Origin: Rhodoferax sp.
GTDB taxonomy: Bacteria; Pseudomonadota; Gammaproteobacteria; Burkholderiales; Burkholderiaceae_C
Reading direction: 5' to 3'
Assembly: GCA_018061265.1 (NCBI GenBank)
Contig: JAGOUM010000029.1
Span: 1 to 36,074 of the forward strand
DNA: 36,074 nt
In this document: piece after piece, positions 3,449-22,239 of the stretch
How positions within the stretch are numbered: the stretch's first letter is position 1
Layout: every line of letters begins with the position of its first letter
Made by a program: the position numbers and the translations under genes
The notes under the pieces: model-generated
Told to the model about the DNA's origin: nothing
The model's input: only the letters and a program-made list of their open reading frames with translations
The model's database searches: none

Positions 3449-3477
3449 CGTTGCCACCTTAGGTGCGTTCGCTTCCG

Positions 3478-5117: not shown

Positions 5118-5171
5118 TGTCGATTTCCTTTTTTATGTCGGTTTCTGGGCACTTGACGGTGCGGGCAGCAG

Positions 5172-5756: not shown

Positions 5757-5846
5757 GATTTACCTTTGCAAGGTCAATAAGTGCCACAAGGAGCCCACGA
5801 CCAGAGCGCCGCAGATCCTTGTGCCTGCTACAAAATTACCATCTGA

Positions 5847-7526
5847 TCAGTAGATGTCGTGCTGCGTGTTGTAGACGTTGAACTTGCCGGTGGGGGTAAT
5901 CATCTTCGGATCGGTGATCACCTTTTTCAGCGCCAGTGTCTTGTCGTCATAGACCACAATGGCTGAACGGTCTGTCTTGCCACCCCACAGAGAAATCCAC
6001 ACTTCGCTGCCATCGGCGCTGTACTCGGGGTGTACGGCGCGTTTGACCGCCTTGGTAGGTGGCAAGCCGGAGTCCTTGGCCACGTTGATGATCTTGAAGG
6101 GCTTCGACAAGTCGTCCATCTTCCACACCGATACCGATTCGGCCGTGTCCTTGTCAGCGTTTTGCGCCGAGTCAGCCCACAGATGGTTGGATTTCGGATG
6201 GGTCTTGACGAACAGGTTGCCCGGCACGTGTTTGACTTCTTGCACCATCTTCCAGTTGTATTGTTTGAATGAGGCAAACTTCGGATCATCTGAAGGGGTA
6301 CTTATTAGCGACACCACGTCAGCACCAAGGTGCCCGGTCGCCCAAACCGGGCCAAACTTGGGGTGCACAAAGTTGGCACCGCGACCGGGGTGCGGGATCT
6401 TCGCCACATCCACCAACGCGGCCAGCTTGCCTTCTTTCAGATCCACTGCCGCGATCTTGTTGGACGCATTGGCTGCCACCAGAAAGTAACGTTTGGACGC
6501 ATCAAAACCGCCATCGTGCAGGAACTTGGCCGAGGCAATGGTGGTGGTTTTCAGGTTTTCAATGTCAGAGTAATCCACCAGCAAAATTTGCCCGGTTTCC
6601 TTGACGTTGACGACCCATTCTGGCTTGATCTCGGAGGCCACGATGGACGCGACGCGCGGCTCGGGGTGATATTCACCATCCACGGTCATGCCACGGGTGC
6701 TGACCACCTTGCGCGGTTTGAGGGTGTCACCGTCCATGATGACGTACTGGGGCGGCCAGTAAGAGCCGGCAATCGCGTATTTGTCTTCAAAACCCTTGAA
6801 CTTGGAGGTGTCCACCGAGCGGGCATCGAAGCCAATCTTGACTTCAGCCACCACCGAGGGTTTTTCCATCCACAAGTCAATCAGGCTCAGACGGCCGTCG
6901 CGGCCAATCACATACACATAACGCCCCGACTTGGACAGGCGAGAAATATGCACGGCGTAGCCGGTTTTCACAATGCTGCGAATGTCCTTGGTGTCACCAT
7001 CAATCAGCGCCACCTCACCGGTGTCACGCAACGTGACTGAGAACATGTTCTTCAGGTTGAAGCTGTTCATCTGTTTGGTCGGACGGTCTTTCACCGGCAC
7101 GATAACTTTCCAGGAGTCCATCGTCTGCTTGAAGCTGTACTCGGGTGGCACGTCCGGTGTTTGCTGGATGTACTTGGCCATCAGGCTCAGTTCTTCTTTG
7201 GTCAGGATGTCGTCAAAATTGACCATGCCGCCATCGGTGCCGTAGCCGATGATCTTTTCCAGCCGTGACTGGCCCAGGCTGAGCGTGCCGCCTTCGGTGG
7301 TTTTGCCGTCTTTGTCGGTCTTGCTCCAATGAGGCTCCAGATTCTTGCCAGTCGCACCCTTGCGCAGCACCCCGTGGCAGCCGGCGCAGCGTTCAAAGTA
7401 GATTTTTTTGGCCGACTCTTTTTCAGCGGCAGTCATGGTTGGTGCCACGTTTTGGCTGAACGCCGAGCCTGTCATGATCGACAGCAGAGTTGCCACCGCA
7501 AGGCTGGCCGTTTTTAGTTGCTTCAT
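5847..7526 (-). CDS. nirS: Cytochrome cd1 nitrite reductase NirS
   Basis: NirS reduces nitrite to nitric oxide in the periplasm. The 559-residue protein has a Sec signal (MKQLKTASLAVATLL...GSAFS), a small c-haem domain with CAGCH at 47-51, and the long eight-bladed d1 propeller. Characteristic d1 stretches include GYAVHISRLSKSGRYVYVIG and HPGRGANFVHPKFGPVWATG, whose histidines correspond to the active-site residues. I use the ATG at 7526, which has GGAG 9 nt upstream, rather than an ATG 15 nt further out that forms part of that ribosome site. NirT and the accessory genes follow. A palindromic regulator box lies about 157 bp upstream. Confidence 0.97.
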   Translation of the reverse strand: MKQLKTASLAVATLLSIMTGSAFSQNVAPTMTAAEKESAKKIYFERCAGCHGVLRKGATGKNLEPHWSKTDKDGKTTEGGTLSLGQSRLEKIIGYGTDGGMVNFDDILTKEELSLMAKYIQQTPDVPPEYSFKQTMDSWKVIVPVKDRPTKQMNSFNLKNMFSVTLRDTGEVALIDGDTKDIRSIVKTGYAVHISRLSKSGRYVYVIGRDGRLSLIDLWMEKPSVVAEVKIGFDARSVDTSKFKGFEDKYAIAGSYWPPQYVIMDGDTLKPRKVVSTRGMTVDGEYHPEPRVASIVASEIKPEWVVNVKETGQILLVDYSDIENLKTTTIASAKFLHDGGFDASKRYFLVAANASNKIAAVDLKEGKLAALVDVAKIPHPGRGANFVHPKFGPVWATGHLGADVVSLISTPSDDPKFASFKQYNWKMVQEVKHVPGNLFVKTHPKSNHLWADSAQNADKDTAESVSVWKMDDLSKPFKIINVAKDSGLPPTKAVKRAVHPEYSADGSEVWISLWGGKTDRSAIVVYDDKTLALKKVITDPKMITPTGKFNVYNTQHDIY

Positions 7527-7676
7527 ATTGTCTAACTCCATTGGTGGGGCAGCCGATCCGTCAAAACGGTGTGTTGCAAGGCTCGGTGAAGGCTGCGGCA
7601 GTTCGGTTCGAGCGCGCTGATTGTTGATTTACGGCACCCGGCTTGTCCTTGAACTGCCTTAAGCAAAATCACACTA

Positions 7677-8197: not shown

Positions 8198-10486
8198 ATG
8201 AAAAGATTGAGCACACTGGCGGCATCCTTGATGGCCGCCGGTATTGGCTTGGCAGTGACGTCGGCGTGGTCAGCAGACTCGCTGCAGGATGTGATGAAAG
8301 CGCGTGGCCTGAGTCAACAAGACTTGCTGGCCGCCGCCAAGACCTATGTGCCCACCGGCGGGCGCGACGAGTTCATCGCCATCAGCTCTGGCGGGCAGTC
8401 AGGCCAGCTCATCGTCTACGGCATTCCCTCCATGCGTATTCTGAAGTACATCGGCGTGTTTACCCCTGAGCCATGGCAGGGTTATGGTTTTGACGAAGAG
8501 TCCAAAAAAGTGCTGGCCGGTGGCCGCATTGACGGCAAAGACATCACTTGGGGCGACACCCATCACCCCGGCTTCTCTGAAACAAATGGCGAATCAGATG
8601 GTCAGTTTGTGTTCATCAACGACAAAGCCAACCCGCGCATTGCGGTGGTTGATCTACGTGACTTTGAGACCAAGCAGATTGTGGTCAACCCGATCTTCAA
8701 GTCAGAGCATGGTGGTGCCTTCGTCACACCCAACTCGGAATACATTTTTGAAGCTTCGCAGTACGCATCACCGCTGGAAAACAAAAAGTTTTACCCACTG
8801 GAAGAGTTCAACGAAAAATACCGTGGCGGCATGACTTACTGGAAGTTTGACCGCACCAAGGGTCTGATCGATCAAAAGCAGTCGTTCTCGATCGAACTGC
8901 CACCTTACTCGCAAGACTTGTCCGATGCAGGCAAAGGCCCGTCAGACGGCTGGTCATTCACCAACTCGTTCTGCTCTGAGCGCTACGTCGGTGGTATTGA
9001 AGACGGTCGCCCACCTTATGAAGCCGGCTGCTCTGCCAAAGATACCGACTATTTGCACGTCATCAACTGGAAAAAAGCGGCCGAACTGGTCAAAGCCGGC
9101 AAAGCCAAAAAGATCAACGGCCATGACGTGCTGCCCATGGAGGTTGCCATCAAAGAAGGCATTCTGTTCCTGATTCCTGAACCCAAATCGCCCCACGGCG
9201 TCGACGTGACACCCGACGGCACCAAGCTGATTGTGGCGGGCAAGCTCGACACCCATGTGTCGGTCTATTCGTTTGAGAAGATCATGGCCGCCATCAAGGC
9301 AGGCAAGTTCGAGTCCAAAGATCCGTATGGCATTCCGGTGATCGGCATGAAAGATGCCTTGCACACCCAGGTGTCGCTGGGTCTGGGCCCGCTGCACACA
9401 CAGTACGACAGCAAGGCCTGCGTGGCCTACACCTCCTTGTATGTGGATTCGCAAGTCGCCAAGTGGGACTACTGCGAAGGCAAACTGCTCGACAAGATCA
9501 GCGTGCACTACAACATTGGTCACCTGATGACCATGGAAGGCGATACCTCCAAACCGCGAGGCAAATACCTGGTGGCCTTGAACAAGCTGGCCATTGACCG
9601 CTTTAATCCGGTCGGTCCACTGCACCCGCAAAACCACCAGTTGATCGACATCAGCGGCGACAAGATGCAGCTGATTTACGACATGCCCATTCCACTGGGC
9701 GAGCCGCACTACGTGGTGGCGATTGATGCCAAGAAGCTCAAGCCGGCTGTGCGTTACAAGCTGGGAACCAATAGCCGCACCGACGAGGCTCACCCTGATG
9801 CGGTCAAGGCTGGTGAAGAAAAAACCGTCAAGAAGGGCAACAAAGTCGAGGTCTGGGGTTCGCTGATTCGCTCACACATCACTCCCGAGAAAATCGAGGC
9901 TGAGGTCGGTGATGAAGTCACCATCCACCTGACCAACCTCGAGCGTGCGCAGGACGAAACCCACGGCTTTACCGTGTCCACCTACAACGTTCATGCATCG
10001 GTTGAGCCAGGCAAGACCGTCACCGTGAAGTTCAAGGCTGACAAGGAAGGTGTGTACCCGTATTACTGCACCGAGTTCTGCTCAGCCTTGCACCTTGAAA
10101 TGCAAGGCTACCTGCTGGTCAAACCTAAGGGTTGGAAAGCCACCAAGACCACACTGGCCAAGGGCAACTACACCGAGACCGACTACAAGGCCACTTTGAA
10201 GAAGGTGGCAGATACCCAGGTGATCATTGACTCGGTGGTGACCTATATCACCAGCGTGAACTACAAGGATTTCCCCGAGGTGGTCGCCATGGTCGAAGAC
10301 GCATTTGACCAGTTAGGCAAAACCAAGGACCTGAAAGCCAAACACGAAGGCTACGCCGCCAAGAAAGATTGGGAAAGCGCCAACTTGTGGGCCGAGCAGA
10401 TCTGGCAATACCAGGTCAAGACGGCTGACCTGGGCCTGCGCGCCAAGACTTTCCTGGAAGAGCACGGTGCCAAGAAAGTGAAGTAA
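8198..10486 (+). CDS. nosZ: Nitrous oxide reductase NosZ, clade II (Sec-exported)
   Basis: NosZ reduces N2O to N2. The signal peptide is a plain Sec type (MKRLSTLAASLMAAG...SAWSA) with no twin arginine, which marks the atypical clade II. All seven histidines expected for the CuZ cluster are visible: H122, H123, H171, H333, H400, H442 and H504. The C-terminal cupredoxin domain has H589 and the CuA motif CTEFCSALHLEM (C624, C628, H632, M635). After this the protein runs on for about 116 residues of helical, lysine-rich sequence (647-762), whereas many NosZ proteins end soon after CuA. A GGAG precedes the ATG. It heads the nos operon and is preceded by a perfect FNR-type box. Confidence 0.97.
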   Translation: MKRLSTLAASLMAAGIGLAVTSAWSADSLQDVMKARGLSQQDLLAAAKTYVPTGGRDEFIAISSGGQSGQLIVYGIPSMRILKYIGVFTPEPWQGYGFDEESKKVLAGGRIDGKDITWGDTHHPGFSETNGESDGQFVFINDKANPRIAVVDLRDFETKQIVVNPIFKSEHGGAFVTPNSEYIFEASQYASPLENKKFYPLEEFNEKYRGGMTYWKFDRTKGLIDQKQSFSIELPPYSQDLSDAGKGPSDGWSFTNSFCSERYVGGIEDGRPPYEAGCSAKDTDYLHVINWKKAAELVKAGKAKKINGHDVLPMEVAIKEGILFLIPEPKSPHGVDVTPDGTKLIVAGKLDTHVSVYSFEKIMAAIKAGKFESKDPYGIPVIGMKDALHTQVSLGLGPLHTQYDSKACVAYTSLYVDSQVAKWDYCEGKLLDKISVHYNIGHLMTMEGDTSKPRGKYLVALNKLAIDRFNPVGPLHPQNHQLIDISGDKMQLIYDMPIPLGEPHYVVAIDAKKLKPAVRYKLGTNSRTDEAHPDAVKAGEEKTVKKGNKVEVWGSLIRSHITPEKIEAEVGDEVTIHLTNLERAQDETHGFTVSTYNVHASVEPGKTVTVKFKADKEGVYPYYCTEFCSALHLEMQGYLLVKPKGWKATKTTLAKGNYTETDYKATLKKVADTQVIIDSVVTYITSVNYKDFPEVVAMVEDAFDQLGKTKDLKAKHEGYAAKKDWESANLWAEQIWQYQVKTADLGLRAKTFLEEHGAKKVK

Positions 10487-10580: not shown

Positions 10581-10889
10581 ATGAAGACAATAGTGTTTTT
10601 AGTATCTGCACTGACTGCAATGGCAGCCAATGCAGCCGATCCCGGAGCCGCGTTATACGCCGAAAAGACCTGCGTTGCCTGCCACGGCAAAGACGCCAAG
10701 AAACCCTTGACCCCGAGCTACCCCAAGATTGCTGGTCAAAACGCAGCCTATCTGGAACAGCAGATGAAGGACATCAAGAGCGGTGCGCGGGCCAACGGCC
10801 AAAGTGCCGCCATGAAGGGTGTGATGCACCTGGTCAGCGACGCAGAAATCAAAACCCTGGCCACCTACCTGTCCAAATTGCCCAGCTAA
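10581..10889 (+). CDS. Small monohaem cytochrome c (NosC1 type)
   Basis: This 102-residue periplasmic cytochrome has a signal peptide (MKTIVFLVSALTAMAANA) and one haem motif, CVACH, at 31-35. PKIAGQ follows and methionines late in the chain (AAMKGVMHLVSD) could be the axial ligand. Clade II nos clusters, as described in Wolinella and relatives, carry one or two such cytochromes that carry electrons to NosZ. It follows nosZ after the hairpin pair and has an AAAGGA ribosome site. The functional role is inferred from position. Confidence 0.85.
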   Translation: MKTIVFLVSALTAMAANAADPGAALYAEKTCVACHGKDAKKPLTPSYPKIAGQNAAYLEQQMKDIKSGARANGQSAAMKGVMHLVSDAEIKTLATYLSKLPS

Positions 10890-10912
10890 AACCTGACTTG
10901 AAGGAAATCATC

Positions 10913-11644
10913 ATGAAAACAATTTTGCATTTGGCCATTGCGGCTGCCTTAATGCCACTGTGCAGCGCCTTTGCCGGCCCGCCGCCACCCAAACATGCGG
11001 GCATTGAATCGAAAGATTACCAATGGGCCAAGATGGAAGGCGAGATGAAAGCGGCGCTCGAAGCCAAGGGTGTAGCCAAACAAGGTGAAGAAGGCTACGA
11101 GATTTGTGGCGCATGCCACCTTCCCTCAGGAGCAGGCCGACCAGACGGCACTTTCCCGCAGTTGGCCGGGCAACACACCACAGTGCTGATCAAACAAATG
11201 GCCGACATTCGGGCCGGTACGCGCGACAACCCGACCATGTACCCGTTTGCCAAAGAGTTGACCGATCCTCAGGAGCTGGCGCATGTGGCAGCTTACATTG
11301 AAGGCCTTTGCATCCCGGTGGACCACGGCAAATACGAAGGCGCAGATGCTGCCAAGCAAATTGCCGCAGGCAAAGACTTGTACGAAAAGCAGTGTGTGGA
11401 ATGCCATGGCAAAAACGGCCAGGGCGACAAGGCCAAGTTCTACCCGGTGATTGCCGGTCAGCACTACAAGTACCTGATTCGCCAGATGACCGAGATTCGT
11501 GACGGCCACCGCCGCAACGCCAACCCGGACATGGTCAAGATCATCAAACCCTACACCAATGATCAACTGGTGGCCATTTCTGCCTACCAGGCCAGCATGT
11601 CCATGCCGGGTGCCATGTGTAAACCCAAAGCCAAGAAAAAGTAA
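10913..11644 (+). CDS. Dihaem cytochrome c (NosC2 type)
   Basis: This 243-residue periplasmic cytochrome has two class I haem domains: CGACH at about 65-69 and CVECH about 95 residues further on. Each domain has an AGQH segment after the haem. I start it at the ATG at 10913, which has AAGGA 7 nt upstream and gives a clean signal peptide ending SAFA-G; an in-frame ATG at 10898 would add five residues and has no good ribosome site. The C-terminus is lysine-rich (KPKAKKK). It lies 23 nt after the monohaem cytochrome. It is the likely second electron carrier in the route from NosH/NosG or a bc1 complex to NosZ. Confidence 0.85.
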   Translation: MKTILHLAIAAALMPLCSAFAGPPPPKHAGIESKDYQWAKMEGEMKAALEAKGVAKQGEEGYEICGACHLPSGAGRPDGTFPQLAGQHTTVLIKQMADIRAGTRDNPTMYPFAKELTDPQELAHVAAYIEGLCIPVDHGKYEGADAAKQIAAGKDLYEKQCVECHGKNGQGDKAKFYPVIAGQHYKYLIRQMTEIRDGHRRNANPDMVKIIKPYTNDQLVAISAYQASMSMPGAMCKPKAKKK

Positions 11645-11653
11645 GTTCGCATC

Positions 11654-12637
11654 ATGCAAGACCCAGTCAAACAAAACCGCCTGATCACGGCACTCACCCT
11701 GGTCGCGCTGGTGGCCATGATCGCGGCGTTTTTTGCGCCTATTTGGTGGGTCTCGCTGACCGCTCCCAACTACCCGCCCGACGCGTTTCCCGATGGCATT
11801 CGCATCCACTTCCACTTTGACAGCGTACAAAACGGCTGCCGCGCCACCGGCACTGGCTCACGCATGGCCGCTGAGACGATGCAGGCTGACATGGGACCGG
11901 ACTCGGGGCGCTACAACCCGATTCTGGATGCCAAGAAGGACGTCAACAAAGATGCCACCGGGCTGGACTGTGTCCATGAGATGAACACCATCAACCACTA
12001 CGTGGGCATGTTCCCGATCGCCACAGGCGCACCGGTAGAGCGGCCGATGGCCAAGTATTTCTTTGGCATGTTCACTGTCATGCTGTTGGGCTTTATCACG
12101 CCTGCGGGGCGAAAACGTACGCTGGTGTTGATCACAGGTTTCCTGGCCGTGGCGGCATGGACGGTAACCGAGCAACTGGTTTTGGGACATCTGGCAGCCC
12201 ACGTCAAACACTATGTAGAAGCGGCAGCGACCTTTTTTAACGAGCCCGCCAAACTGCAGGTCTGGGGCAACAATGTGACGCTGTACACCCAGATCGCGAT
12301 TGGCGGCATGATCGCTGCGATGGTGATTCTGGTGGCCGGTGTGGCGCTTTGGCCAAGTTTTTCACTCTTGCTGGTGGGTGTGCCTGCGCTACTACCTCTG
12401 TTTTTTGTCATCGAGTACGCCGGCTGGCTCTGGTTCTTTGGTCACAACATGCACCCATGGGGTGCGTTCACGGTCAAGCCGTTTATGCCGACGCTGTTTG
12501 GCGAAGGCAAGGTGGCGCAGTTTTCCACTTACTCCTACCCGTACTGGGGCTATGGACTATTGATGGTGACATTCGCATGCCTGACGGTGGCAATGTTGTT
12601 GCGGCGCAAGCAATTGCGCGAGACAACGGGCAACTGA
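11654..12637 (+). CDS. Six-helix membrane protein in the NosB position
   Basis: This 327-residue polytopic protein has about six transmembrane helices (near 10-35, 130-150, 156-178, 205-230, 235-262 and 295-315). A large loop of about 95 residues, probably periplasmic, lies between the first two and carries two cysteines. Clade II nos clusters typically encode a membrane protein called NosB beside nosZ, of unknown biochemical role; position, size and topology fit that, so I suggest NosB-like without asserting orthology. It starts 10 nt after the dihaem cytochrome and ends 1 nt before nosD, so it is part of the operon. No catalytic motif is recognisable. Confidence 0.6.
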   Translation: MQDPVKQNRLITALTLVALVAMIAAFFAPIWWVSLTAPNYPPDAFPDGIRIHFHFDSVQNGCRATGTGSRMAAETMQADMGPDSGRYNPILDAKKDVNKDATGLDCVHEMNTINHYVGMFPIATGAPVERPMAKYFFGMFTVMLLGFITPAGRKRTLVLITGFLAVAAWTVTEQLVLGHLAAHVKHYVEAAATFFNEPAKLQVWGNNVTLYTQIAIGGMIAAMVILVAGVALWPSFSLLLVGVPALLPLFFVIEYAGWLWFFGHNMHPWGAFTVKPFMPTLFGEGKVAQFSTYSYPYWGYGLLMVTFACLTVAMLLRRKQLRETTGN

Positions 12638-12638
12638 C

Positions 12639-14018
12639 ATGGCAAGGTGGCGGTCTGCGGTTCCAGCGTTGCTGCTGGGGGCTCTGTCGGTGGTAGTGTT
12701 GGCGCAAGGGGTAAGCGACGTGGTGGGACTGGGGGAAACATCGGGCAAACTCGGTGCCACCGCTGATTTATCCACCGCGCCCAGGGTAACCATCGACCGG
12801 CCCAAACCGACCTTCATGCTGCATGAGCGCCACAAACGGGTCCATGGGCTTAAACCTTTTCAAAATTTGGTGGACGCAGCACCCGAAGGCTCAGTACTGC
12901 GCCCGCCGCCCGGCCGTTACGCCGGGCCAGTGGTGCTGAAAAAGCCACTGACGATTGAAGGCGATGGCAAGGTCACGATTGATGCGGGTGACCGTGGCAC
13001 GGTCTTTTCCATGGAGGCTGGAAATACCACCCTGCGCGGCATTCACCTGACCGGCTCTGGCGACAACCACGACACCGACGACTCGTGTCTTGACGTACGC
13101 GGACACGGCAACGTGATTGAAAACCTGGTGGTTGACAACTGCCTATTTGGCATTGACCTGAAACAGTCCAACGACAGCATTGTGCGTGGCAACACCGTCA
13201 AGTCCAAGCCTGCCCCACTGGGCGTGCGTGGCGACGGCATTCGCCTTTGGTACAGCAATAACAACCTGATTGAGAACAACTTGGTCACTGATTCACGCGA
13301 CATGGTGGCCTGGTACTCACACCGCAACATTTACCGCGGCAATGAGGGGCGACGCAGCCGTTATTCCATCCATTTCATGTTTGCCAACAACAACATCGTG
13401 GAGAACAACCGCTTTATCGACAACGCGGTGGGCATTTATTTCATGTACATGGAAGGTGGCGGTGCGCGCAACAACCTGATCTCGCACGCCACCGGGTCCA
13501 CCGGCATGGCGCTTGGCTTCAAGGAGTCGTCAGACATATTTATTGAAAACAACGACATCATTTACAGCGCCGTCGGTGTGGGCTCCGACCTGTCGCCGTT
13601 CCAGCCGGACACCACCATTCGCTTCAAAGGCAACCGCTTTGCCTACAACGGCGTAGCGGTACAACTCACCAGCGAACTCGGCGGCAACGAGTTCACCGAC
13701 AACATCTTTGAGGGCAACATCACCGACATCACCCAGGGTGGCCGTGGCAAAGGTGACAGAAACAAATGGTTGGGCAACTACTTTGACACTTACCAGGGTT
13801 TTGACAAAAACAAGGATGGCTTTGGCGACACCACGCATGAGCACTATGCGTTTGCCGACCAGATCTGGATGGAAATCCCCGCTGCCGGTTTCTTCAAGAC
13901 CTCACCGGTGCTGGAGCTGCTGGACTTTCTAGAGCGTCTGGCACCATTTTCGTCGCCTGAATTGCAACTTAAAGATGCCAAGCCGCGCTACATCAAACCG
14001 CCAAGGATGGCCAAATGA
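12639..14018 (+). CDS. nosD: NosD, periplasmic beta-helix copper-site maturation protein
   Basis: NosD is a right-handed beta-helix protein that works with the NosFY transporter to assemble the CuZ site of NosZ. The 459-residue product has a signal peptide and repeating NNLIENN, NNIVENN and ENNDIIYS turns typical of carbohydrate-binding/NosD repeats through most of its length. The helix core starts after about residue 80 (PEGSVLRPPPGRYAGP). Length is normal. The stop overlaps the nosG start by 4 nt. Confidence 0.93.
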   Translation: MARWRSAVPALLLGALSVVVLAQGVSDVVGLGETSGKLGATADLSTAPRVTIDRPKPTFMLHERHKRVHGLKPFQNLVDAAPEGSVLRPPPGRYAGPVVLKKPLTIEGDGKVTIDAGDRGTVFSMEAGNTTLRGIHLTGSGDNHDTDDSCLDVRGHGNVIENLVVDNCLFGIDLKQSNDSIVRGNTVKSKPAPLGVRGDGIRLWYSNNNLIENNLVTDSRDMVAWYSHRNIYRGNEGRRSRYSIHFMFANNNIVENNRFIDNAVGIYFMYMEGGGARNNLISHATGSTGMALGFKESSDIFIENNDIIYSAVGVGSDLSPFQPDTTIRFKGNRFAYNGVAVQLTSELGGNEFTDNIFEGNITDITQGGRGKGDRNKWLGNYFDTYQGFDKNKDGFGDTTHEHYAFADQIWMEIPAAGFFKTSPVLELLDFLERLAPFSSPELQLKDAKPRYIKPPRMAK

Positions 14019-14875
14019 GTGACGAACTACCCGACGCACCAGTCCAGGTCGCGCCGGTCAAAGAAAAAAAAATGCGTCTGACGCGCCAGGACCGCCGCCG
14101 CCTGCTGCGCACCGCTTTGCTGGCCGGTGGGGTGCTAGGCGCTGCGCTGTCGGGCTTTTTGCCATTGGTCTACGCACAAAAACAGCGACTACGCCCACCC
14201 GGTGCGCTGGACGAAAAGGACTTTCTGGGTTCGTGCATCAAGTGCGGGCAGTGTGTACAGGTGTGCCCGGTGCAAGCTATCAAACTGGCCGATCTGGTGG
14301 ACGGATTTGGTGTGGGCGTGCCCTACATCGACGCGCGCGCGCAGGCTTGCGACTTTTCCTGTGACGCAGTGCAGTGCATTCTGGCCTGCCCCACCGGCTC
14401 GCTGGCCTACCACAAGCCGGCTTTTTTGCCGGTGCGCGCCGGAGCCACGCTGGCCTCCAAGCCAATTTTGAAAGCCAAGGAAAAAGACCCGGAACCCACG
14501 CTCAACCTCAAGGAACGCATGGGTGTGGCACGACTGACCCGCCCTGAAGCCTGCCTGGCGGTGCAAGGCAAGGGTTTCAAAGGCCCTGCACGTGGCGCAG
14601 ACTTTGACGGGCAAATGCGCTACATGGATGTGGACCGCTGGAAACCCATTCGTATTGCCGATCACCCGTACGACGTGCCCGAGTGCAACCTGTGCGTCAG
14701 TGAATGCCCGGTGGGTGGTGCCATTCGTATGGAAAGCCTGCAAACCGCCGATGGCAAAACCCGCCGCCAGCCGGTCGTGCTGGAACCATGCGTGGGCTGT
14801 GGCGTGTGCGAAATGGTCTGCCCCACGGCGCAACCGTGCATCGTGATTGAAGCCCGGGAGGTCTGGAAAGTATGA
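14015..14875 (+). CDS. nosG: NosG, polyferredoxin (NapG-like) of the nos electron chain
   Basis: NosG is a periplasmic iron-sulphur protein thought to take electrons from the membrane protein NosH. The 286-residue chain has a twin-arginine-like signal (RRRLLRTALLAGG) and four [4Fe-4S] sites: CIKCGQCVQVCP starting at residue 74, CDFSCDAVQCILACP, CNLCVSECP, and CVGCGVCEMVCP near the end. It is homologous to NapG/MauM. It overlaps both nosD and nosH by 4 nt. Clade II clusters use NosGH as a quinol oxidation module where classical clusters use NosR, which is absent here. Confidence 0.92.
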   Translation: MSDELPDAPVQVAPVKEKKMRLTRQDRRRLLRTALLAGGVLGAALSGFLPLVYAQKQRLRPPGALDEKDFLGSCIKCGQCVQVCPVQAIKLADLVDGFGVGVPYIDARAQACDFSCDAVQCILACPTGSLAYHKPAFLPVRAGATLASKPILKAKEKDPEPTLNLKERMGVARLTRPEACLAVQGKGFKGPARGADFDGQMRYMDVDRWKPIRIADHPYDVPECNLCVSECPVGGAIRMESLQTADGKTRRQPVVLEPCVGCGVCEMVCPTAQPCIVIEAREVWKV

Positions 14876-15852
14876 ACAAGGTGCACCAAGCGCGGTTTTT
14901 CGAGCAAATCGCCATCATGTTCGGGCGCGGGCCCAAGAAGCCGACCGAGATCACAGAGCGCGCCCAGCAAGTGCATGAGCTCAAACGCATGGCCAACAAG
15001 GTGGAGGTGCGTGCCGCCATTCTGAAAGCCCACGAGAAACCGCACGGCAACACCTGGCGCAACCGGCGCTGGGCATTTTTGCTGGCCGTCAATCTGTTTT
15101 TTGTGGTGTCCTTTTACTTTGACATCCAGATTTTGGAAGGCTCCCTGTCGGCTTCGCGCTTGATCGGCTTTCACCTGATTGACCTGAATTCGGCTTTGCA
15201 AGTCATGCTGGCGCACAAACACATCATCGTCAACCTGGTGATTGGCACCGCCACTGTATTGGCCATCTGGATGCTGCTGGGCGGGCGCACCTTTTGCTCC
15301 TGGGTCTGCCCTTACCACTTTGTCGCCGAGTTTGCCGAAAAGCTGCACCTGTGGATGGCCAAGAAAAAGTTGGTGTCTGACCAGCCCATGAGCCGCGGCT
15401 TGCGCACCTGGTTCTGGGCAATTTTTGCGTTTGCGGCTTTAGGCACCGGCTACACGGTGTTTGAAGCCATCTCGCCTACTGGTATTTTGTCGCGCGCGCT
15501 GATCTATGGCCCTGGCTTGGCGCTGCTGTGGGTGGCGGCGCTGTTGCTGTTTGAGGTGACGTTTTCCCGGCGCGCCTGGTGCCGCTATGTCTGCCCGATT
15601 GGCTTGACTTATGGCGTAGTGGGCATTGTGTCGCCGGTGCGCGTCAAGTACACACTGCAAGGCTGCTTTCATGAAGGCGACTGCAAGAAGGTCTGCCTGG
15701 TGCCACATGTGCTCGAAACCGTGGTCAAAGGCCGCGCTGTGGATACCGAAGTCATCCTTGGCCCCGACTGCACACGCTGCGGTGCTTGTGTGGATGTGTG
15801 CCCCACTGGCTCGCTCAAATTCGACATCAAGGGTCTGTCAAAGATTCTCTAG
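14872..15852 (+). CDS. nosH: NosH, membrane iron-sulphur quinol dehydrogenase (NapH-like)
   Basis: The 326-residue protein has a cytoplasmic N-terminus, about four transmembrane helices (near 63-82, 120-140, 180-200 and 205-225), two membrane-surface CxxxCP motifs (CSWVCPYHF and CRYVCPIGL) and C-terminal ferredoxin cysteines (CFHEGDCKKVC, then CTRCGACVDVCP). This is the NapH/NosH architecture, which passes electrons from menaquinol in organisms where it has been studied. It is coupled to nosG by a 4-nt overlap and is followed 30 nt later by nosF. Note the possible link to the menaquinone genes downstream. Confidence 0.92.
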   Translation: MNKVHQARFFEQIAIMFGRGPKKPTEITERAQQVHELKRMANKVEVRAAILKAHEKPHGNTWRNRRWAFLLAVNLFFVVSFYFDIQILEGSLSASRLIGFHLIDLNSALQVMLAHKHIIVNLVIGTATVLAIWMLLGGRTFCSWVCPYHFVAEFAEKLHLWMAKKKLVSDQPMSRGLRTWFWAIFAFAALGTGYTVFEAISPTGILSRALIYGPGLALLWVAALLLFEVTFSRRAWCRYVCPIGLTYGVVGIVSPVRVKYTLQGCFHEGDCKKVCLVPHVLETVVKGRAVDTEVILGPDCTRCGACVDVCPTGSLKFDIKGLSKIL

Positions 15853-15882: not shown

Positions 15883-16743
15883 ATGATCCGTTTTAACAAG
15901 CTATCTAAAACATTCAAGCGCGTCAAGATACTTGAAGGCATCGACCTGGACATTGGTCTGGGCGAACGTGTAGCGCTGATTGGCTCCAATGGTGCCGGCA
16001 AAACCACGCTGATCCGTTGTCTGCTGGGCGAATACACCTTTGATGGCGAGGTAGTCATCAATGGCCGCAACCCGCGTACCGAGCGCACGGAGGTGTTGGG
16101 CCAGATTGGCTTTGTGCCGCAGTTGCCACCACCGCTAAAAATGCCGGTGGCGCAGCTCATCGACTTTTCTGCCGCGCTGTGCAAAACCGAGCCCGCGCGG
16201 ATTCACGAGGTCGCCATTCGCCTGGGGCTCGACCTGGCCAGCATCCTGTCGCGCCCGTTCAACAAACTCTCGGGAGGCATGAAACAAAAGCTGTTGATTG
16301 CCATCGCCCTGGGGCGCGATGCCAAGGTGCTGGTGATGGACGAGCCCGCTGCCAACCTTGACCCACAGGCGCGCAAGATCTTCTTTGATCTGCTGGCCGA
16401 GCGGGCCGAGCACGTCACGATGCTGATCTCCAGCCACCGAATTAATGAGGTGTCATCCTTAGTGACCCGGGTGGTGGAGCTCGACACGGGCAAAGTGGTG
16501 CTGGATGACAGGGTGGCGGCCGAGGTGTCGCTGGCAGGCATTTTGCTTGGCCGGGTGGTGTCACGTCAGCATGAGCCGGCACTGGCCAAGGCGCTGGCGC
16601 AGTGGAACTTCAAAACTTTGGACTCAGAAGGACTGGAGTGGGAAGGCCAGGTTGCCGGCCCGGACCGACTTCGATTCTTGGGCACAGCGTCGCGCTACGC
16701 CGCGGTGGTTAGCCACGTGTCGCTGACCGAGGTCTCACCGTGA
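15883..16743 (+). CDS. nosF: NosF, ABC transporter ATPase
   Basis: NosF is the ATPase that with NosY forms a transporter needed for CuZ assembly, interacting with NosD. The 286-residue sequence shows Walker A GSNGAGKTTL, the Q-loop region GFVPQLPPP, the signature LSGGMKQK, and Walker B VLVMDEPAANLDP. A C-terminal extension of about 70 residues follows the core, as in other NosF proteins. Its stop overlaps the GTG start of nosL by 4 nt. Confidence 0.93.
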   Translation: MIRFNKLSKTFKRVKILEGIDLDIGLGERVALIGSNGAGKTTLIRCLLGEYTFDGEVVINGRNPRTERTEVLGQIGFVPQLPPPLKMPVAQLIDFSAALCKTEPARIHEVAIRLGLDLASILSRPFNKLSGGMKQKLLIAIALGRDAKVLVMDEPAANLDPQARKIFFDLLAERAEHVTMLISSHRINEVSSLVTRVVELDTGKVVLDDRVAAEVSLAGILLGRVVSRQHEPALAKALAQWNFKTLDSEGLEWEGQVAGPDRLRFLGTASRYAAVVSHVSLTEVSP

Positions 16744-17249
16744 AACGACGCCATTTTTTGACCGGCAGCGCCGCCTTGGGTCCGCTTGCCGCATTCACCC
16801 CGTTGACCAGTCTGCTGCTGGCTGGCTGTGGCGACGATGGTCACTGGGCCGAAGGCATGACCCCTATCAAGTGGGACCGTGACGTTTGTGTTCGCTGCAA
16901 GATGGTCATCTCTGACCCGCGCTTTGCCGTTGAGATCAAAGGTGGTCCGAAAAACACTGTCTTCAAGTTCGACGATATGGGTTGTGCGGCGACCTGGCGG
17001 GTTGAAAAGCTGACCGAACACCCCTGGATGGGCGATGAAAAGACCGGCTTTTGGGTGGCTGAGTATGGTGCAAAGGGCGAAAAATGGCTCAACGCGCTGA
17101 GCGCCCATTTTCAAGCGGGCCGCACGTCCCCCATGGGCTACAACTACGCCGCCTTTGCCGAGCCACAGCCTGACACCATCAGTTATGAGGCCATGATGAA
17201 GATCACCAGCAGCTTCTGGCCCGCCAGTTGCCTGCCCGCCAAGGGCTGA
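16740..17249 (+). CDS. nosL: NosL, outer copper-binding lipoprotein
   Basis: NosL is a periplasmic lipoprotein that delivers Cu(I) for the CuZ cluster. The 169-residue product starts with GTG, overlaps nosF, and has a lipoprotein signal ending LLLAGC. The family copper site is seen as CVRCKMVIS, about 20 residues into the mature protein, followed by FDDMGC. Its place between nosF and nosY is usual for nos clusters. Confidence 0.92.
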   Translation: MKRRHFLTGSAALGPLAAFTPLTSLLLAGCGDDGHWAEGMTPIKWDRDVCVRCKMVISDPRFAVEIKGGPKNTVFKFDDMGCAATWRVEKLTEHPWMGDEKTGFWVAEYGAKGEKWLNALSAHFQAGRTSPMGYNYAAFAEPQPDTISYEAMMKITSSFWPASCLPAKG

Positions 17250-17284: not shown

Positions 17285-18112
17285 ATGAAACAACTCTGGT
17301 TAACCGCCAAACTCGACATCATTGAATCATTGCGCGCGCGCTGGTTCATGATTTACACACTGGTTTTTGGCGGCATTGTGGCGCTGCTGTTTTTGTTTGG
17401 CCTGACCGAATCGCGCGTGCTGGGCTTTATTGGCTTGTCGCGCCTGCTGGTCACCTACATCCAACTCACCATGGCGATATTGCCGATTTTTGTGCTCATC
17501 ACCACCGTGCGATCGGTCGCTGGCGACCGCGAAGCTGGCGTTTACGAATATCTGCTGTCGCTCCCTGTTTCACTGGCTGCCTGGTTCTGGGGGAAGATTC
17601 TGGGGCGCTATCTGGTGATTTTTTTGCCAGTATTTGGAGCCATGGTGCTGGCGGTGCTGATTGCGCTGGTGCGTGGCATTGATGTGCCCTGGGGTATTTT
17701 CAGCTATTACACCGCGCTGCTGGCGGTAATGGCGGCGTGTTTTCTGGGCATCGGCATGTTGATTTCAGCCATGGCGCGCAGCACCGATATGGCGCAAGGG
17801 GCGGCATTTCTGGTGTGGCTGACGTTTTTGCTGTTCCTCGATTTGATCCTGTTGGGCCTGATGATTCAGGGCAAGGTCGAACCCAACCTGGTGGTCACAC
17901 TGGCGCTGGCCAACCCGCTGCAGGTGTTTCGCACTGCGGCGCTGGCGTTGTTTGACCCGCAGCTGATCGTGCTGGGGCCGTCGGCCTATGTGATTCTGGA
18001 TTTGTTTGGCGTGTTGGGCTACAAGGTGTTTGCGCTGGTGTACCCGCTGGCGCTTGGGCTGGTGTCAGCCACACTGGGCTTTGTGCTGTTTCGCCGGGGT
18101 GATTTGCCGTGA
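17285..18112 (+). CDS. nosY: NosY, ABC-2 type permease
   Basis: NosY is the membrane part of the NosFY transporter. The 275-residue protein has six predicted helices with the ABC-2 pattern, including GDREAGVYEYLLSLPVS after the second helix. The ATG at 17285 is preferred to an earlier in-frame start inside nosL's end because it aligns with the usual MKQLWLTAKLD opening. The stop overlaps the GTG start of the thioredoxin gene by 4 nt. Confidence 0.93.
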   Translation: MKQLWLTAKLDIIESLRARWFMIYTLVFGGIVALLFLFGLTESRVLGFIGLSRLLVTYIQLTMAILPIFVLITTVRSVAGDREAGVYEYLLSLPVSLAAWFWGKILGRYLVIFLPVFGAMVLAVLIALVRGIDVPWGIFSYYTALLAVMAACFLGIGMLISAMARSTDMAQGAAFLVWLTFLLFLDLILLGLMIQGKVEPNLVVTLALANPLQVFRTAALALFDPQLIVLGPSAYVILDLFGVLGYKVFALVYPLALGLVSATLGFVLFRRGDLP

Positions 18113-18654
18113 CGACGCGCTTTTGCCTGGGTTTGCTGGCCTGTTTTCTTGCCTGGACCAGCAGCGGCGTTGGTGCACAACCGGTTGGCACTTCTGTCAC
18201 TACATCTTCAGTAGCTGTCAGCGCACAGCCCATAAGCGCTAGAGCCATATTTTCTGTAAATTTATTTGATCTGGACAACCAGCCGGCGACACTGGCAAAC
18301 CGCCAGGGTCAACCCATGGTGGTGAACTTTTGGGCGCGCTGGTGCCCACCGTGCCGGGTTGAAATCCCTACGCTGGCGGCACTCCACGCACGCAAGACCG
18401 GTGTCGTGGTGATTGGCCTCAACATCGAAACCGACCCGGCCCCGGTGCGTGACTTTGCTTACGCCTACGACATCAACTACCCCGTGCTGTTAACCCGAGG
18501 CGCCGGCCTGGACTTGATGCGCAACCTGGGCAACAGCAAAGCGGGCCTGCCCTTTACCGTGGTGCTGAACCGCCAGGGCAATATTGTGGCGAGCCACACC
18601 GGTGTGGTGACCCAGGCCCAACTCGATGCCGCCGTGGCATTGGCACTGCGCTGA
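18109..18654 (+). CDS. TlpA/ResA-like membrane or periplasmic thioredoxin
   Basis: This 181-residue thiol-disulphide protein has an N-terminal signal or anchor (CLGLLACFLAWTSSG), a low-complexity spacer, then a thioredoxin fold with WCPPC at 78-82 and the cis-proline segment KAGLPFTVV. It begins with GTG overlapping nosY. Such proteins reduce cysteines in apocytochromes, Sco or CuA sites. Given the neighbours, it probably keeps the NosZ CuA cysteines, NosL or Sco reduced. The fold is certain, the target inferred. Confidence 0.87.
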   Translation: MTTRFCLGLLACFLAWTSSGVGAQPVGTSVTTSSVAVSAQPISARAIFSVNLFDLDNQPATLANRQGQPMVVNFWARWCPPCRVEIPTLAALHARKTGVVVIGLNIETDPAPVRDFAYAYDINYPVLLTRGAGLDLMRNLGNSKAGLPFTVVLNRQGNIVASHTGVVTQAQLDAAVALALR

Positions 18655-18659
18655 ACACC

Positions 18660-19397
18660 ATGGCAGGCGACCACGATCTTGATCACAGCTTTGGCAGCAT
18701 GGCCGTCAGCGCCGATGAGCGCCGTGCGCGCATTCGCCAGGTGTTTGAAGCAGTGGCTCCGCGCTACGACCTGATGAACGACCTGATGAGCTTTGGTATC
18801 CACCGGCTGTGGAAGCGCACGCTGGCGCGCCGGGTGATGGGCATCACCGGCCAGGTGGTGGATCTGGCGGGTGGCACCGGCGATGTGGCCCGCCTGCTGT
18901 TGGCCCCGGGTCGCCGTGTGACGGTATGCGACCCCAGTCTGGCCATGATGCACGCCGGACAACAGCGCCCGGGCGGTGCGCAACTGCAATGGCTGGTGGG
19001 AGAGGCTGAACACCTGCCACTGGCCGACGCCAGTGTCGACTTGCTCACCATCTCGTTCGGGCTGCGTAACACCACCCACATTGCCAGCGCATTGAGCGAA
19101 ATCCGCCGCGTGCTCAAACCCGGCGGGCACTTTGTGTGTCTGGAGTTCTCTCGCCCGGCAGCCTGGCTGGCGCCGTTTTACGATCTGTATTCGCGCTGGG
19201 TCATCCCGCGCCTGGGTGCTGCCGTGGCGGGTGAGCCACAGGCTTACCAGTACCTGATTGAATCGATTCGACTGTTTCCTGACCAGCAAGGTTTTGCCAC
19301 GTTGATGGGCCAGGCCGGCCTGGCCGAGGTGACCTGGGAAAACCTGTCGTTTGGCATTGCCTGTCTACATTTTGGTGTTCGTCCCCGTGAATACTGA
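18660..19397 (+). CDS. UbiE/MenG-type quinone C-methyltransferase
   Basis: This SAM-dependent enzyme methylates the quinone ring, turning demethylmenaquinone into menaquinone and/or acting in ubiquinone synthesis. The 245-residue sequence has the family opening VFEAVAPRYDLMNDLMSFG, the SAM loop VVDLAGGTGDVA, SFGLRNTT, and LKPGGHFVCLEFSRP. Every landmark of UbiE/COQ5 is present. It sits 5 nt after the thioredoxin gene and overlaps menA by 11 nt. Betaproteobacteria normally keep ubiE near other ubi genes, so a copy in a nos operon beside menA points to menaquinone. I leave the symbol open between ubiE and menG. Confidence 0.9.
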   Translation: MAGDHDLDHSFGSMAVSADERRARIRQVFEAVAPRYDLMNDLMSFGIHRLWKRTLARRVMGITGQVVDLAGGTGDVARLLLAPGRRVTVCDPSLAMMHAGQQRPGGAQLQWLVGEAEHLPLADASVDLLTISFGLRNTTHIASALSEIRRVLKPGGHFVCLEFSRPAAWLAPFYDLYSRWVIPRLGAAVAGEPQAYQYLIESIRLFPDQQGFATLMGQAGLAEVTWENLSFGIACLHFGVRPREY

Positions 19398-20307
19398 TCT
19401 GCCAACCGCCAACGGGTCCGGCACCACCCAGCTGCCCATGCTACGTGTGTGGTGGACTGCGATCCGCTCACGCACCCTGAGCCTGGCGGTCACGCCCGTG
19501 CTGGTGGGCGCGGCGCTGGCCTATGCAGACGGCATGACGCTGCAATTGCCGGCTTTTTTTGCTGCCATGGCCTGCGCTGTGCTGATCCAGATTGGCACCA
19601 ACCTGCACAACGATGTGCGTGACTTTGAGCGCGGCAACGACCGCGCCGATCGCGTCGGGCCCTTGCGTGTCACCGCCTCGGGCTGGGTTAGCCCCCGCAC
19701 CATGCACCGTGCCACGGCCTGGACCTTTGGGATGGCCGCTATGCTGGGAGTGTACCTGGTGGCGCTGGGCGGCTGGCCGATCTTGCTGGCTGGCATGGCG
19801 TCGTTGTTGGCAGGTTGGGCCTATTCTGGCGGGCCACGGCCGGTGTCGTATACACCGCTGGGCGAAGTGTTTGTGCTGGTGTTTTTTGGCTGGGTGGCGG
19901 TGCTGGGCAGCTACTGGTTGCAAAGTGGTCAGCTCTCGCTCAATGCCTGGCTGTGCGGCACGGTGCTGGGTCTGCCCGCTGCGGCGGTGCTGCTGGTCAA
20001 TAACTACCGCGATCTGGAGGACGACTTGCGTAGCGGCCGCCAGACCCTGGTGGCGCTGCTGGGGCGTGACGAGGCGCGGGTGGTTTACGCCAGCATGATT
20101 CTGCTGCCATTTGCGCTGGTGCTGGTGCTGGCTGGGCGTGGTCTGCTTGGCACGCTTTTGGCATTGGTGGTGTTGCCCCTGGGCATCCAGCTGACCCGGC
20201 GCATGCGTCACAACACCAGTGGCCTGTCGCTCAATGCCTTGCTTGCAGACACCGCGCGGATCAGCCTGTTGCTCGGTCTGGCGCTGTCCATCGGGGTGTT
20301 GCTATGA
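19387..20307 (+). CDS. menA: 1,4-Dihydroxy-2-naphthoate polyprenyltransferase (MenA type)
   Basis: MenA attaches the isoprenoid tail to 1,4-dihydroxy-2-naphthoate, giving demethylmenaquinone. The 306-residue protein has the UbiA-superfamily helical bundle with two aspartate motifs in MenA form: NLHNDVRDFERGNDRADR followed by GPLRVTASG, and NNYRDLEDDLRSGRQTL. These resemble MenA more than UbiA. It starts with GTG, overlaps the methyltransferase gene by 11 nt, and shares ATGA with the transporter gene. Other men genes are not in the window. An alternative would be a UbiA paralogue, but the second motif makes that less likely. Confidence 0.8.
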   Translation: MNTDLPTANGSGTTQLPMLRVWWTAIRSRTLSLAVTPVLVGAALAYADGMTLQLPAFFAAMACAVLIQIGTNLHNDVRDFERGNDRADRVGPLRVTASGWVSPRTMHRATAWTFGMAAMLGVYLVALGGWPILLAGMASLLAGWAYSGGPRPVSYTPLGEVFVLVFFGWVAVLGSYWLQSGQLSLNAWLCGTVLGLPAAAVLLVNNYRDLEDDLRSGRQTLVALLGRDEARVVYASMILLPFALVLVLAGRGLLGTLLALVVLPLGIQLTRRMRHNTSGLSLNALLADTARISLLLGLALSIGVLL

Positions 20308-21203
20308 ACTCGCCGTCTGTCGGCCAGCTGCTGGCACTGATGTTGGCACTCATCATGCTCTATCTAGGCTTGACGCTGCAAGTTGCCGACTTTAAGCGCG
20401 TGTGGCAACGCCCGACTGCCCTGGCGGCGGGGCTGACCGGACAGCTGCTGATGCTGCCGCTGCTGGGTTTTGTCGTCGCCAATTGGCTGTCATTGGACCC
20501 GCTCATGGCGGTGGGTTTGATGGTACTGGTGGCGTGCCCCGGGGGGGTCAGCTCCGGACTGCTGACACACCTGGCGCGTGGAGAGGTTGCATTGTCGATC
20601 TCGCTCACTGCCGTCACCAGCGTTGCCGCGATGTTGACGCTGCCGCTGGTGGTGAATTTGTCGATGCATTTTTTTCTCGCACAGAGCGATCCTGTGGCCT
20701 TTGACCTGGCCACCATGGTGCGAAGCATCTTCTTGCTCACCACGCTGCCTGTGCTCATTGGCATGGGCTTGCGACAGTGGCAACCCGAGCCGGTCTTGCG
20801 TCTGCTGCCTGCTGCGGCGCGCCTGGCCACCGGGCTGTTTGTGCTGATTGTGCTGGCGACTTTTTGGGAACAACGCCAGACGCTGATGACCCAACTACCT
20901 ACGCTGGGCAGTGCCTGCGTGTTGCTCAACAGTTTGGTGCTTCTGGGTGCCTGGGTGGTGTCGCGTGCTTTCGGGCTGGGTGCCGCAGAGCGAACCGCGG
21001 TGGTCACCGAATGTGGTCTGCAGAACGCGGCGCTTGGCATTTATGTGTGCGTGCAGCTGTTGCACACCCCGGCCATGAGTGCACCGAGCATTGTTTACGC
21101 CCTTCTGATGAATGGCGGGGCATTGGCCTTTGTCTATTTTGTGCGCGCCAAGTCACCTTCCGCAGGGCTAACCCGCGGCCCAAACCCACTTTCGTCCCCA
21201 TGA
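20304..21203 (+). CDS. BASS-family (bile acid:sodium symporter-like) transporter
   Basis: This 299-residue protein has eight to ten hydrophobic helices and BASS landmarks: MVLVACPGGVSSGLLTHLARG in the crossing-helix region and TECGLQNAALG near the end. Known members import organic anions such as bile acids, pantoate or pyruvate, usually with sodium. It is tied to menA by a 4-nt overlap and to the next gene likewise, so it was probably recruited for the same purpose. A carboxylated aromatic such as dihydroxynaphthoate would be a logical substrate; that is inference only. Confidence 0.82.
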   Translation: MNSPSVGQLLALMLALIMLYLGLTLQVADFKRVWQRPTALAAGLTGQLLMLPLLGFVVANWLSLDPLMAVGLMVLVACPGGVSSGLLTHLARGEVALSISLTAVTSVAAMLTLPLVVNLSMHFFLAQSDPVAFDLATMVRSIFLLTTLPVLIGMGLRQWQPEPVLRLLPAAARLATGLFVLIVLATFWEQRQTLMTQLPTLGSACVLLNSLVLLGAWVVSRAFGLGAAERTAVVTECGLQNAALGIYVCVQLLHTPAMSAPSIVYALLMNGGALAFVYFVRAKSPSAGLTRGPNPLSSP

Positions 21204-21586
21204 AAAACACCTTACGCCTCACCCGCAGCGCGCTTTTGCGCATTGCCCTGCCATTGGCTTGCCTGGCAACCTGGGCACAACCGATCGAGGCCGGCTTGCA
21301 GGCCATCACTGAGCTTGCACACGTCAACGGCCTGGCGATGGCCTGCCAGGAAATGGGTATCGCCGCCCAAGCCAAAGCGCTGATGCTGCGCCATGCTCCA
21401 AAGACTGCGCGCTTCGGCAGCGCATTTGACGAAGGCACACATCTGTCATTTCTGGCGCAAACCCGAAGCAGCGCCACTTGCCCCGACGAGCCAACGCTGC
21501 GCCTGCAGCTGCTTGCATTGGCCCTGACGCTTCAGGCCAACCTGCCCGCCGGGCCGTCCAACCAAACCGCCACGAAGGCACCTTGA
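21200..21586 (+). CDS. Small secreted protein of unknown function
   Basis: This 128-residue protein starts in the ATGA overlap with the transporter gene. It has a basic, then hydrophobic signal peptide (LLRIALPLACLATWA, likely cut after WA). The mature part is helical, with two cysteines (in AMACQEMG and SATCPDEP) and AQAKALMLRHAPKTARFG. I do not recognise a family. Its position between the transporter and the Sco gene, and its export, suggest a role in the envelope with NosZ maturation or electron transfer. The spacing of 2 nt to sco shows co-translation. Confidence 0.6.
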   Translation: MKNTLRLTRSALLRIALPLACLATWAQPIEAGLQAITELAHVNGLAMACQEMGIAAQAKALMLRHAPKTARFGSAFDEGTHLSFLAQTRSSATCPDEPTLRLQLLALALTLQANLPAGPSNQTATKAP

Positions 21587-21588
21587 CC

Positions 21589-22239
21589 ATGAAGCGCATT
21601 GACCAACAAACCCTGATCCAAGCCCTGGTGCTGGGGGTATTTATTCTGCTACCCGGCTTAAGCCCGGCGCAGCCCGCGACAGCAGGCGTTTCGCCGGGCA
21701 CAACGACGAGCGCTGAGGCCAACCCGAAGGCCAACACCCAGCGCGAATCACCGCGCTACCTGCTCATGGGAACCCATGGCCGTGCCGTTCGTTCGGAAGA
21801 CTTCCGGGACCGATATCAGTTGATTGCCTTTGGGTTTGTTTCATGCCCGGACGTTTGCCCGACCACCATGCTTGAAATGCAGCAGGTTTTGTCTGGACTG
21901 GGCGAACGCGCAGCTGATTTGCAACCAATCTTCATCAGCATTGATCCTCAGCGTGACACCATCGAAGTGCTGAAAGCCTATGCAGCCAACTTCGACAAAC
22001 GCATACTCGGCCTGACTGGATCGGCTGATTTGGTGCGATTTGCGGCCAACAACTTCAAGGTACAGTTCAGCAGAGTACAAGAACCAGGTTCAGGAGCAAA
22101 TGTCTACACCATGGACCACACTGCTGGAATGTTTCTGCTTGGGCCTGATGGTCAGTTGCTCAAAAAGTTTTCCTTTGGCACGCCTGTTGCCGAAATTCAA
22201 GCAACTATCGAGCAGTGGATGCGGATGGACGTCAAGTAA
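21589..22239 (+). CDS. Sco1/SenC copper chaperone
   Basis: This periplasmic protein of thioredoxin fold delivers copper to CuA sites. The 216-residue product has an N-terminal hydrophobic segment and the metal site CPDVCP (C86, C90) plus the conserved histidine in MDHTAG (H177). The DPQRDT segment is also typical. The start follows the previous stop by 2 nt. As the last gene of the nos string it most likely metallates the CuA centre of NosZ, although Sco proteins also serve cytochrome oxidases. Confidence 0.9.
   Translation: MKRIDQQTLIQALVLGVFILLPGLSPAQPATAGVSPGTTTSAEANPKANTQRESPRYLLMGTHGRAVRSEDFRDRYQLIAFGFVSCPDVCPTTMLEMQQVLSGLGERAADLQPIFISIDPQRDTIEVLKAYAANFDKRILGLTGSADLVRFAANNFKVQFSRVQEPGSGANVYTMDHTAGMFLLGPDGQLLKKFSFGTPVAEIQATIEQWMRMDVK

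Follow-up and report, generated by a model that had tools for sequence, protein, structure and literature searches.

Growth on external 1,4-dihydroxy-2-naphthoate (DHNA) is reported for gut and oral bacteria (PMC5738691, PMC9704088), and a 2017 paper calls DHNA transporters undescribed. According to PMC9704088, Porphyromonas pasteri grows in a DHNA-dependent manner and keeps only menA and ubiE; in this species and some P. gingivalis strains menFDCEB are missing and DHNA restores growth. Lactiplantibacillus plantarum is reported to use exogenous DHNA without the early pathway (PMC10746273). The clade II nitrous oxide (N2O) reductase (nos) cluster of Wolinella succinogenes, whose gene content is given in part in PMC2907700, has a NapGH-like pair. 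Here we describe a stretch of 36,074 bases (contig JAGOUM010000029.1, the window) from a metagenome-assembled genome of Rhodoferax, order Burkholderiales (MAG G000; 4.24 Mb in 261 contigs, 89.5% complete), in which ubiE, menA and a gene for a transporter of the BASS family form a run inside a clade II nos operon. We think it likely that ubiE-menA-BASS serves N2O respiration as a salvage module for the last steps to menaquinone, with the BASS protein importing DHNA.

Such salvage would resemble that of both Porphyromonas and L. plantarum. The arrangement differs: menA and ubiE are reported as scattered single genes in the Porphyromonas strains, for which the passages of PMC9704088 consulted name no transporter, whereas in the window they form one run with BASS in a respiratory operon; and in L. 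plantarum, which lives by fermentation, DHNA is used for extracellular electron transfer, with no BASS link named in the passages of PMC10746273 consulted. DHNA salvage itself is known; what is new here is that the genes form a run together with a candidate importer, set within an operon for respiration. To our knowledge, the W. succinogenes nos cluster is without menA, ubiE and BASS. Among the matches listed from the open-licence literature there is no description of nos with menA/ubiE or menaquinone genes, nor of BASS or another DHNA importer, both being weak absences; 'transporter' occurs 0 times in PMC12502741 and PMC12421875, 'naphthoate' 0 times in PMC2907700, and 'quinone' and 'ubiE' 0 times in PMC9381517.

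The three genes are as follows.

18660-19397, plus strand: ubiE/menG methyltransferase (TIGR01934, 248 bits, cut-off 158)
19387-20307, plus strand: menA, DHNA polyprenyltransferase (GTG start; NF004751, 283 bits, cut-off 264; tree)
20304-21203, plus strand: BASS transporter, candidate DHNA importer (PF01758, 113 bits, cut-off 24.3)

The MenA protein also exceeds the cut-off of a second MenA model, TIGR00751 (175 versus 102 bits). Pfam places it in the UbiA superfamily, but no 4-hydroxybenzoate prenyltransferase (UbiA) equivalog occurs among its 13 listed NCBIfam matches. An earlier note on this DNA had proposed a MenA-type prenyltransferase, an assignment that a placement with UbiA would have undone; that placement was tried and is ruled out by the NCBIfam MenA cut-offs and the MenA tree. 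The quinone methyltransferase of the same note likewise stands at the level of the TIGR01934 subfamily; its score does not reach the strict equivalog cut-offs for UbiE or MenG (best NF001242, 245 versus 351 bits). The menA frame is already open from a TTG at 19351.

Genome-wide searches of the MAG, which covered MenD, MenB and MqnA/D, found no MenB over cut-off (best match 143.8 bits versus 342.7), no MenD over cut-off (49 versus 244) and no match to MqnA/D (PF02621), MqnB/C/E being outside the search. A complete menaquinone pathway elsewhere, which the earlier note had named as the finding that would remove salvage, thus did not appear in what was searched (MenC/E/F/H were not searched genome-wide), and the MAG has the profile of a DHNA salvager, with MenA and UbiE present and MenD and MenB not found at 89.5% completeness. 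Because the MAG is incomplete, relatives were examined. MenD over cut-off was found in 0 of 13 Rhodoferax genomes, including the two-contig triplet carrier G435, and in 7 of 9 non-Rhodoferax genomes of the same search. A MenA match at 1e-10 is present in 17 of 89 Rhodoferax genomes, a strong one (E <1e-100) in 12. Five have a nos-operon MenA (G000, G002, G475, G480, G005); ubiE-menA-BASS lies outside nos in G005 (a second copy), G023, G434, G435, G004, G458 and G453. In Rhodoferax antarcticus ANT.BR, a genome whose record bears no MAG label, the triplet lies outside nos. We also observed that of the two copies in G005 (L055, L056), one in nos, the other lies beside purine-degradation-like genes; that in G005, G023 and G435 purine-degradation-like proteins, as read from the translations, stand upstream of the non-nos triplet; that its neighbours in G434 (R. 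antarcticus) differ from this set; and that in G472 menA is interrupted by an internal stop and adjoined by neither ubiE nor BASS.

A profile of 12 BASS proteins run against the genome collection yielded 61 loci, 16 from Bacteroidales and 45 from other groups (L072-L114, L130, L132), among whose records are Sulfuritalea, Rhodocyclales, Burkholderiaceae, Steroidobacteraceae and Chromatiales, one being labelled Victivallales. Of these 45, menA lies directly upstream on the same strand in 42 (in L109 by a 59-aa match only), ubiE adjoins in 34 and nosY is in the locus in 26. Ten are the query's own rows, chosen for menA linkage (L072, L073, L075-L081, L097); with these removed, menA is found in 32, ubiE in 24 and nosY in 22 of 35. 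The three loci without menA comprise L095 and L130, which start at most 256 bases from a contig end, and L111, with 1.4 kb of menA-free sequence upstream. In many nos-BASS loci a second nosD-like gene (39-47% to nosD), absent from the window, directly follows BASS (e.g. L072, 6972-8126).

BASS of this type and MenD exclude one another. The comparison covered 80 genomes, namely 46 with BASS (45 of window type and L124, of Bacteroidaceae type, the one taken of the 16 Bacteroidales loci) and 34 MenA-positive genomes without it, taken from 47 other such genomes of the order (G040, G140, G203, G288, G373, G393, G397, G398, G399, G406, G418, G422 and G431 being left out). MenD was over cut-off in 0/46 versus 20/34 (Fisher 4e-10, relatedness ignored). 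MenB was over cut-off in 0/46, and PF02621 gave a partial 36-bit match in one of the 46, a Chromatiales genome. A MenB under another name was considered and rejected for four BASS genomes (G499, G500, G502, G506) whose matches, at 282-322 bits, remain below the 342.7 cut-off; these proteins are presumably BadI-type hydrolases. The BASS profile, run at 1e-30 on 51 genomes, gave high scores only for G000 and G435, and the weaker matches of G054, G177, G334 and G363 (110-135 bits) fall outside the BASS clade in the tree.

The order sample, in which 48 of 399 genomes including our own are MenA-positive, permits a comparison of what surrounds menA. When up to 20 kb of sequence flanking MenA is inspected in the other 47 genomes, two or more nos genes are seen in the vicinity of menA in at least 11, several contigs being short; all 11 are among the 20 genomes with MenD. 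Three of them (G055, G185, G222) have the order nosY-tlpA-ubiE-menA-menB-menC, then menE and menF, with menD nearby; seven, all from family f15, read menA-tlpA-menC-nosZ, and in six of these menB precedes menA, whereas the contig of the seventh, G141, stops at that point; and G102 has nos-sco-ubiE-menA. Linkage of clade II nos to menaquinone genes is thus a recurrent feature of this order, which strengthens the wider idea of the earlier note that the two go together in the group. Because menB-menC hold the same operon position in three related genomes, BASS appears to stand in for DHNA synthesis.

For the MenA tree, of 91 loci entered, 11 duplicates were dropped and 74 were used, L040, L048, L050, L095, L109 and L111 being left out for want of a match or as fragments of <200 aa. 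A single 48-row clade (support 100/98) unites the MenAs linked to both nos and BASS with the nos-linked MenAs of the MenD-positive genomes G055, G185, G222 and G102, and with family f10 MenAs without BASS; f15 MenAs are outside it. A change between the BASS type and the MenD-positive type, in whichever direction, therefore occurred within one lineage. Two nos-BASS loci have an extra gene between tlpA and ubiE, 30-33% similar to menA and UbiA-like by look (L100, 3329-4051; L104, 3254-3976).

A separate case comes from the Bacteroidaceae. L124, from yak rectum, has a tight BASS-ubiE-menA run whose BASS is just 32% identical and whose MenA and UbiE pass TIGR00751 and TIGR01934; no MenD or MenB over cut-off was found in its genome. 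BASS of the L124 type is present at 1e-40 in 52 of 201 genomes of the family. In 12 of the 30 loci obtained (the most similar, 66-100% identity, seed included) menA and ubiE adjoin BASS, in three gene orders. MenD is over cut-off in 0/12 of these menA-adjacent genomes, 3/52 BASS-positive and 18/28 BASS-negative genomes, the last being the lowest-numbered of 149 (20 listed as negative and 8, G557-G564, absent from the 52 matches). The MenD comparisons give Fisher values of 1.2e-4 and 3e-8, with relatedness ignored; L124 is counted twice, among the 46 BASS genomes above and among the 12 Bacteroidaceae genomes. The survey of other clusters called for by the earlier note thus yielded both the exclusion of MenD and this separate case.

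With respect to the BASS protein itself, the earlier assignment to an organic-anion transporter family is borne out by the SBF domain (PF01758) and by the BASS fold; at 166 versus 326 bits for TIGR00841, it is by sequence a divergent BASS. PDB relatives were found by sequence (best E 3.6e-33). The predicted model (mean pLDDT 75.9) best matches the structure of ASBT_NM in complex with the small organic acid pantoate (TM 0.83, 24% identity); compared with ASBT_NM and ASBT_Yf (PDB 3zuy, 8oyg, 4n7w), the window BASS shares the fold (TM 0.82-0.85), at 23-25% identity and in a different gene context. Among 46 proteobacterial menA-linked BASS rows, Gln47, Glu236 and Gln240 are retained in 46, 46 and 38, respectively. 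These residues align with what we take to be Na+-site residues of ASBT_NM. At position 85, presumably the place of a Na+ ligand, 43 of the same rows have Gly and the other 3 Ala, against Asn in 57 of 58 other rows; an altered ion coupling is at most a possibility, residues 84-93 being modelled at low confidence. In a tree of 104 rows, from which duplicates and fragments of <230 aa (L130 among them) were removed, the menA-linked proteins from Proteobacteria group together in a clade of their own (100/96, 46 rows); those that adjoin menA in Bacteroidaceae make up a second (100/88, 12 rows), nested in a Bacteroidota clade. This topology, in which several outgroup branches are long, favours the BASS-menA link having arisen at least twice. 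Six of nine plasmid-borne BASS proteins are nearer the proteobacterial set; for the nine, taken from 56 matching records, no annotated menA lies within 2.5 kb.

The remainder of the operon, on the plus strand from 8198, is as follows.

8198-10486, plus strand: nosZ, clade II (Sec-dependent) N2O reductase (TIGR04246, 907 bits, cut-off 625)
10581-10889 and 10898-11644, plus strand: two c-type cytochromes (PF00034/PF13442)
11654-12637, plus strand: membrane protein, which we take from its position to be nosB-like (no Pfam or NCBIfam match; conserved across nos loci)
12639-14018, plus strand: nosD (PF05048 NosD, 101 bits)
14015-14875, plus strand: nosG (matches NapG models, below cut-off; with nosH, a NapGH-type quinol dehydrogenase)
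14872-15852, plus strand: nosH (TIGR02163, 240 bits, cut-off 213)
15883-16743, plus strand: nosF, presumably (open reading frame call; conserved among relatives)
16740-17249, plus strand: nosL, presumably (no Pfam match; conserved among relatives)
17285-18112, plus strand: nosY, presumably (weak ABC-permease matches; conserved among relatives)
18109-18654, plus strand: tlpA/ResA-like thioredoxin (PF08534, PF00578)
21200-21586, plus strand: 128-aa open reading frame between BASS and sco (no Pfam match)
21589-22239, plus strand: sco, copper chaperone (PF02630, 151 bits)

The names nosF, nosL and nosY are ones we assume from position and look. NosZ and NosH over cut-off and NosD by Pfam place the genes in a clade II nos operon, NosG being below cut-off. 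After tlpA, ubiE, menA, BASS, the 128-aa frame and sco follow on the same strand with open frames, and the junctions from nosY through the 128-aa frame are -4, +5, -11, -4 and -4 nt. The order, coordinates and gene families read in the earlier note are confirmed; its last -4 junction does not lead straight to sco, since the 128-aa frame intervenes. That frame is conserved between BASS (or the second nosD) and sco, a similar one occurring in 19 of the 45 BASS loci. Because nosY-tlpA-ubiE-menA-BASS recurs in other genomes, the gene order is not due to chance. An assembly artefact is excluded by the recurrence of this nos-linked order in many genomes, and is also contradicted by the presence of the triplet outside nos in records not labelled MAG. 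Divergent from nosZ, on the minus strand (2717-7541), are nirS, a NapC/NirT-type cytochrome (5172-5756) and further cytochromes.

With respect to mechanism, we infer DHNA as the cargo, inward transport, menaquinone as the product and NosGH as its consumer. DHNA shed by neighbouring bacteria would be imported by BASS; MenA would supply the polyprenyl side chain, and methylation by UbiE/MenG would complete menaquinone; and menaquinol would be oxidised by NosGH, with electrons passing via c-type cytochromes to the clade II NosZ. The host cell would otherwise rely on ubiquinone, as members of the group generally do. The bacterium probably depends on its neighbours for this quinone building block.

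The consumer could be another one. The module may be real and its menaquinone may serve the NapC/NirT-type cytochrome, whose gene lies beside nirS, or low-potential redox in general, the place in nos reflecting co-regulation only; the Rhodoferax triplets outside nos and the menA-BASS pairs without nos genes in L105, L106, L110 and L114 are consistent with this. We regard it as unlikely, because linkage to nos recurs in several architectures: alongside BASS (26 of the 45 loci contain nosY), with men genes ahead of nosZ, and with men genes following nosY. The cargo, too, could differ. BASS proteins carry varied compounds, the closest structure found has pantoate bound and the protein is below the TIGR00841 cut-off, so that the substrate might be a precursor that comes before DHNA, or pantoate, or some other organic acid; alternatively, a toxic naphthoquinone might be exported. 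An earlier precursor would be useless without MenB, which is over cut-off in 0/46 BASS genomes, however, an exporter gives no reason for the exclusion of MenD that is seen, and for any other cargo the adjacency of menA to two separate BASS clades is to be accounted for; we consider these options improbable.

That DHNA is made by an undescribed route, with BASS incidental, would fit the 14 of 34 MenA-positive genomes that have neither MenD nor the BASS clade, in which another route or importer must operate somewhere, but it leaves both the BASS-menA adjacency (42 of 45 loci) and the MenD exclusion unexplained, and we give it little credence. Least probable, in our judgement, is that MenA and UbiE act on a substrate other than DHNA to make another quinone: the position of UbiE below the strict equivalog cut-offs would allow this, whereas the MenA protein exceeds the cut-offs of two MenA models and clusters in the tree with its counterparts from MenD-positive nos-linked genomes.

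Several observations weigh against DHNA salvage tied to N2O respiration. The cargo of a BASS protein is not readable from sequence. The seven Rhodoferax triplet copies outside nos mean that nos is not the sole partner. In the Bacteroidaceae, no menA lies within 1.5 kb of BASS in 18 of the 30 loci, MenD is over cut-off in the BASS-positive genomes G536, G577 and G700, and the menA-adjacent G646 has a 161-bit MenD-like match, below cut-off; a match like it is also the second match in the MenD-positive genomes G538, G545 and G577. Many genomes are incomplete MAGs, and the genome-wide searches covered MenD, MenB and MqnA/D, without MenC, MenE, MenF and MenH. A universal rule that MenA without MenD is always accompanied by BASS fails, with 14 exceptions among 34 (G045, G054, G101, G145, G172, G177, G184, G221, G282, G293, G299, G334, G363, G370); since these lack both MenD over cut-off and the window BASS clade, other solutions exist. 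Seven of the 14 (family f20: G054, G101, G145, G184, G221, G282, G370) have MenB over cut-off and no MenD at 1e-30, so that in these the early pathway may have diverged instead of being lost. We also note that G177, G334 and G363 (family f10) have MenA without MenB, MenD, convincing MqnA/D (20-28-bit matches in two) or the window BASS clade.

Seldom found with MenD, and neighbouring both menA and ubiE in members of two phyla, the BASS gene is a concrete candidate for a DHNA importer. On balance we lean towards the view that the window BASS clade and the separate Bacteroidaceae clade are the missing DHNA importers, and that N2O reduction in Rhodoferax and Rhodocyclales depends on cross-fed DHNA. 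Because R. antarcticus ANT.BR carries the triplet, the module is testable in culture. If the proposal is correct, runs of importer, MenA and UbiE would turn a public good of neighbouring bacteria into menaquinone, which could be part of the reason why certain of these bacteria are difficult to culture alone, and part of the biological sink for N2O, a greenhouse gas, would depend on a vitamin-like factor from other bacteria.

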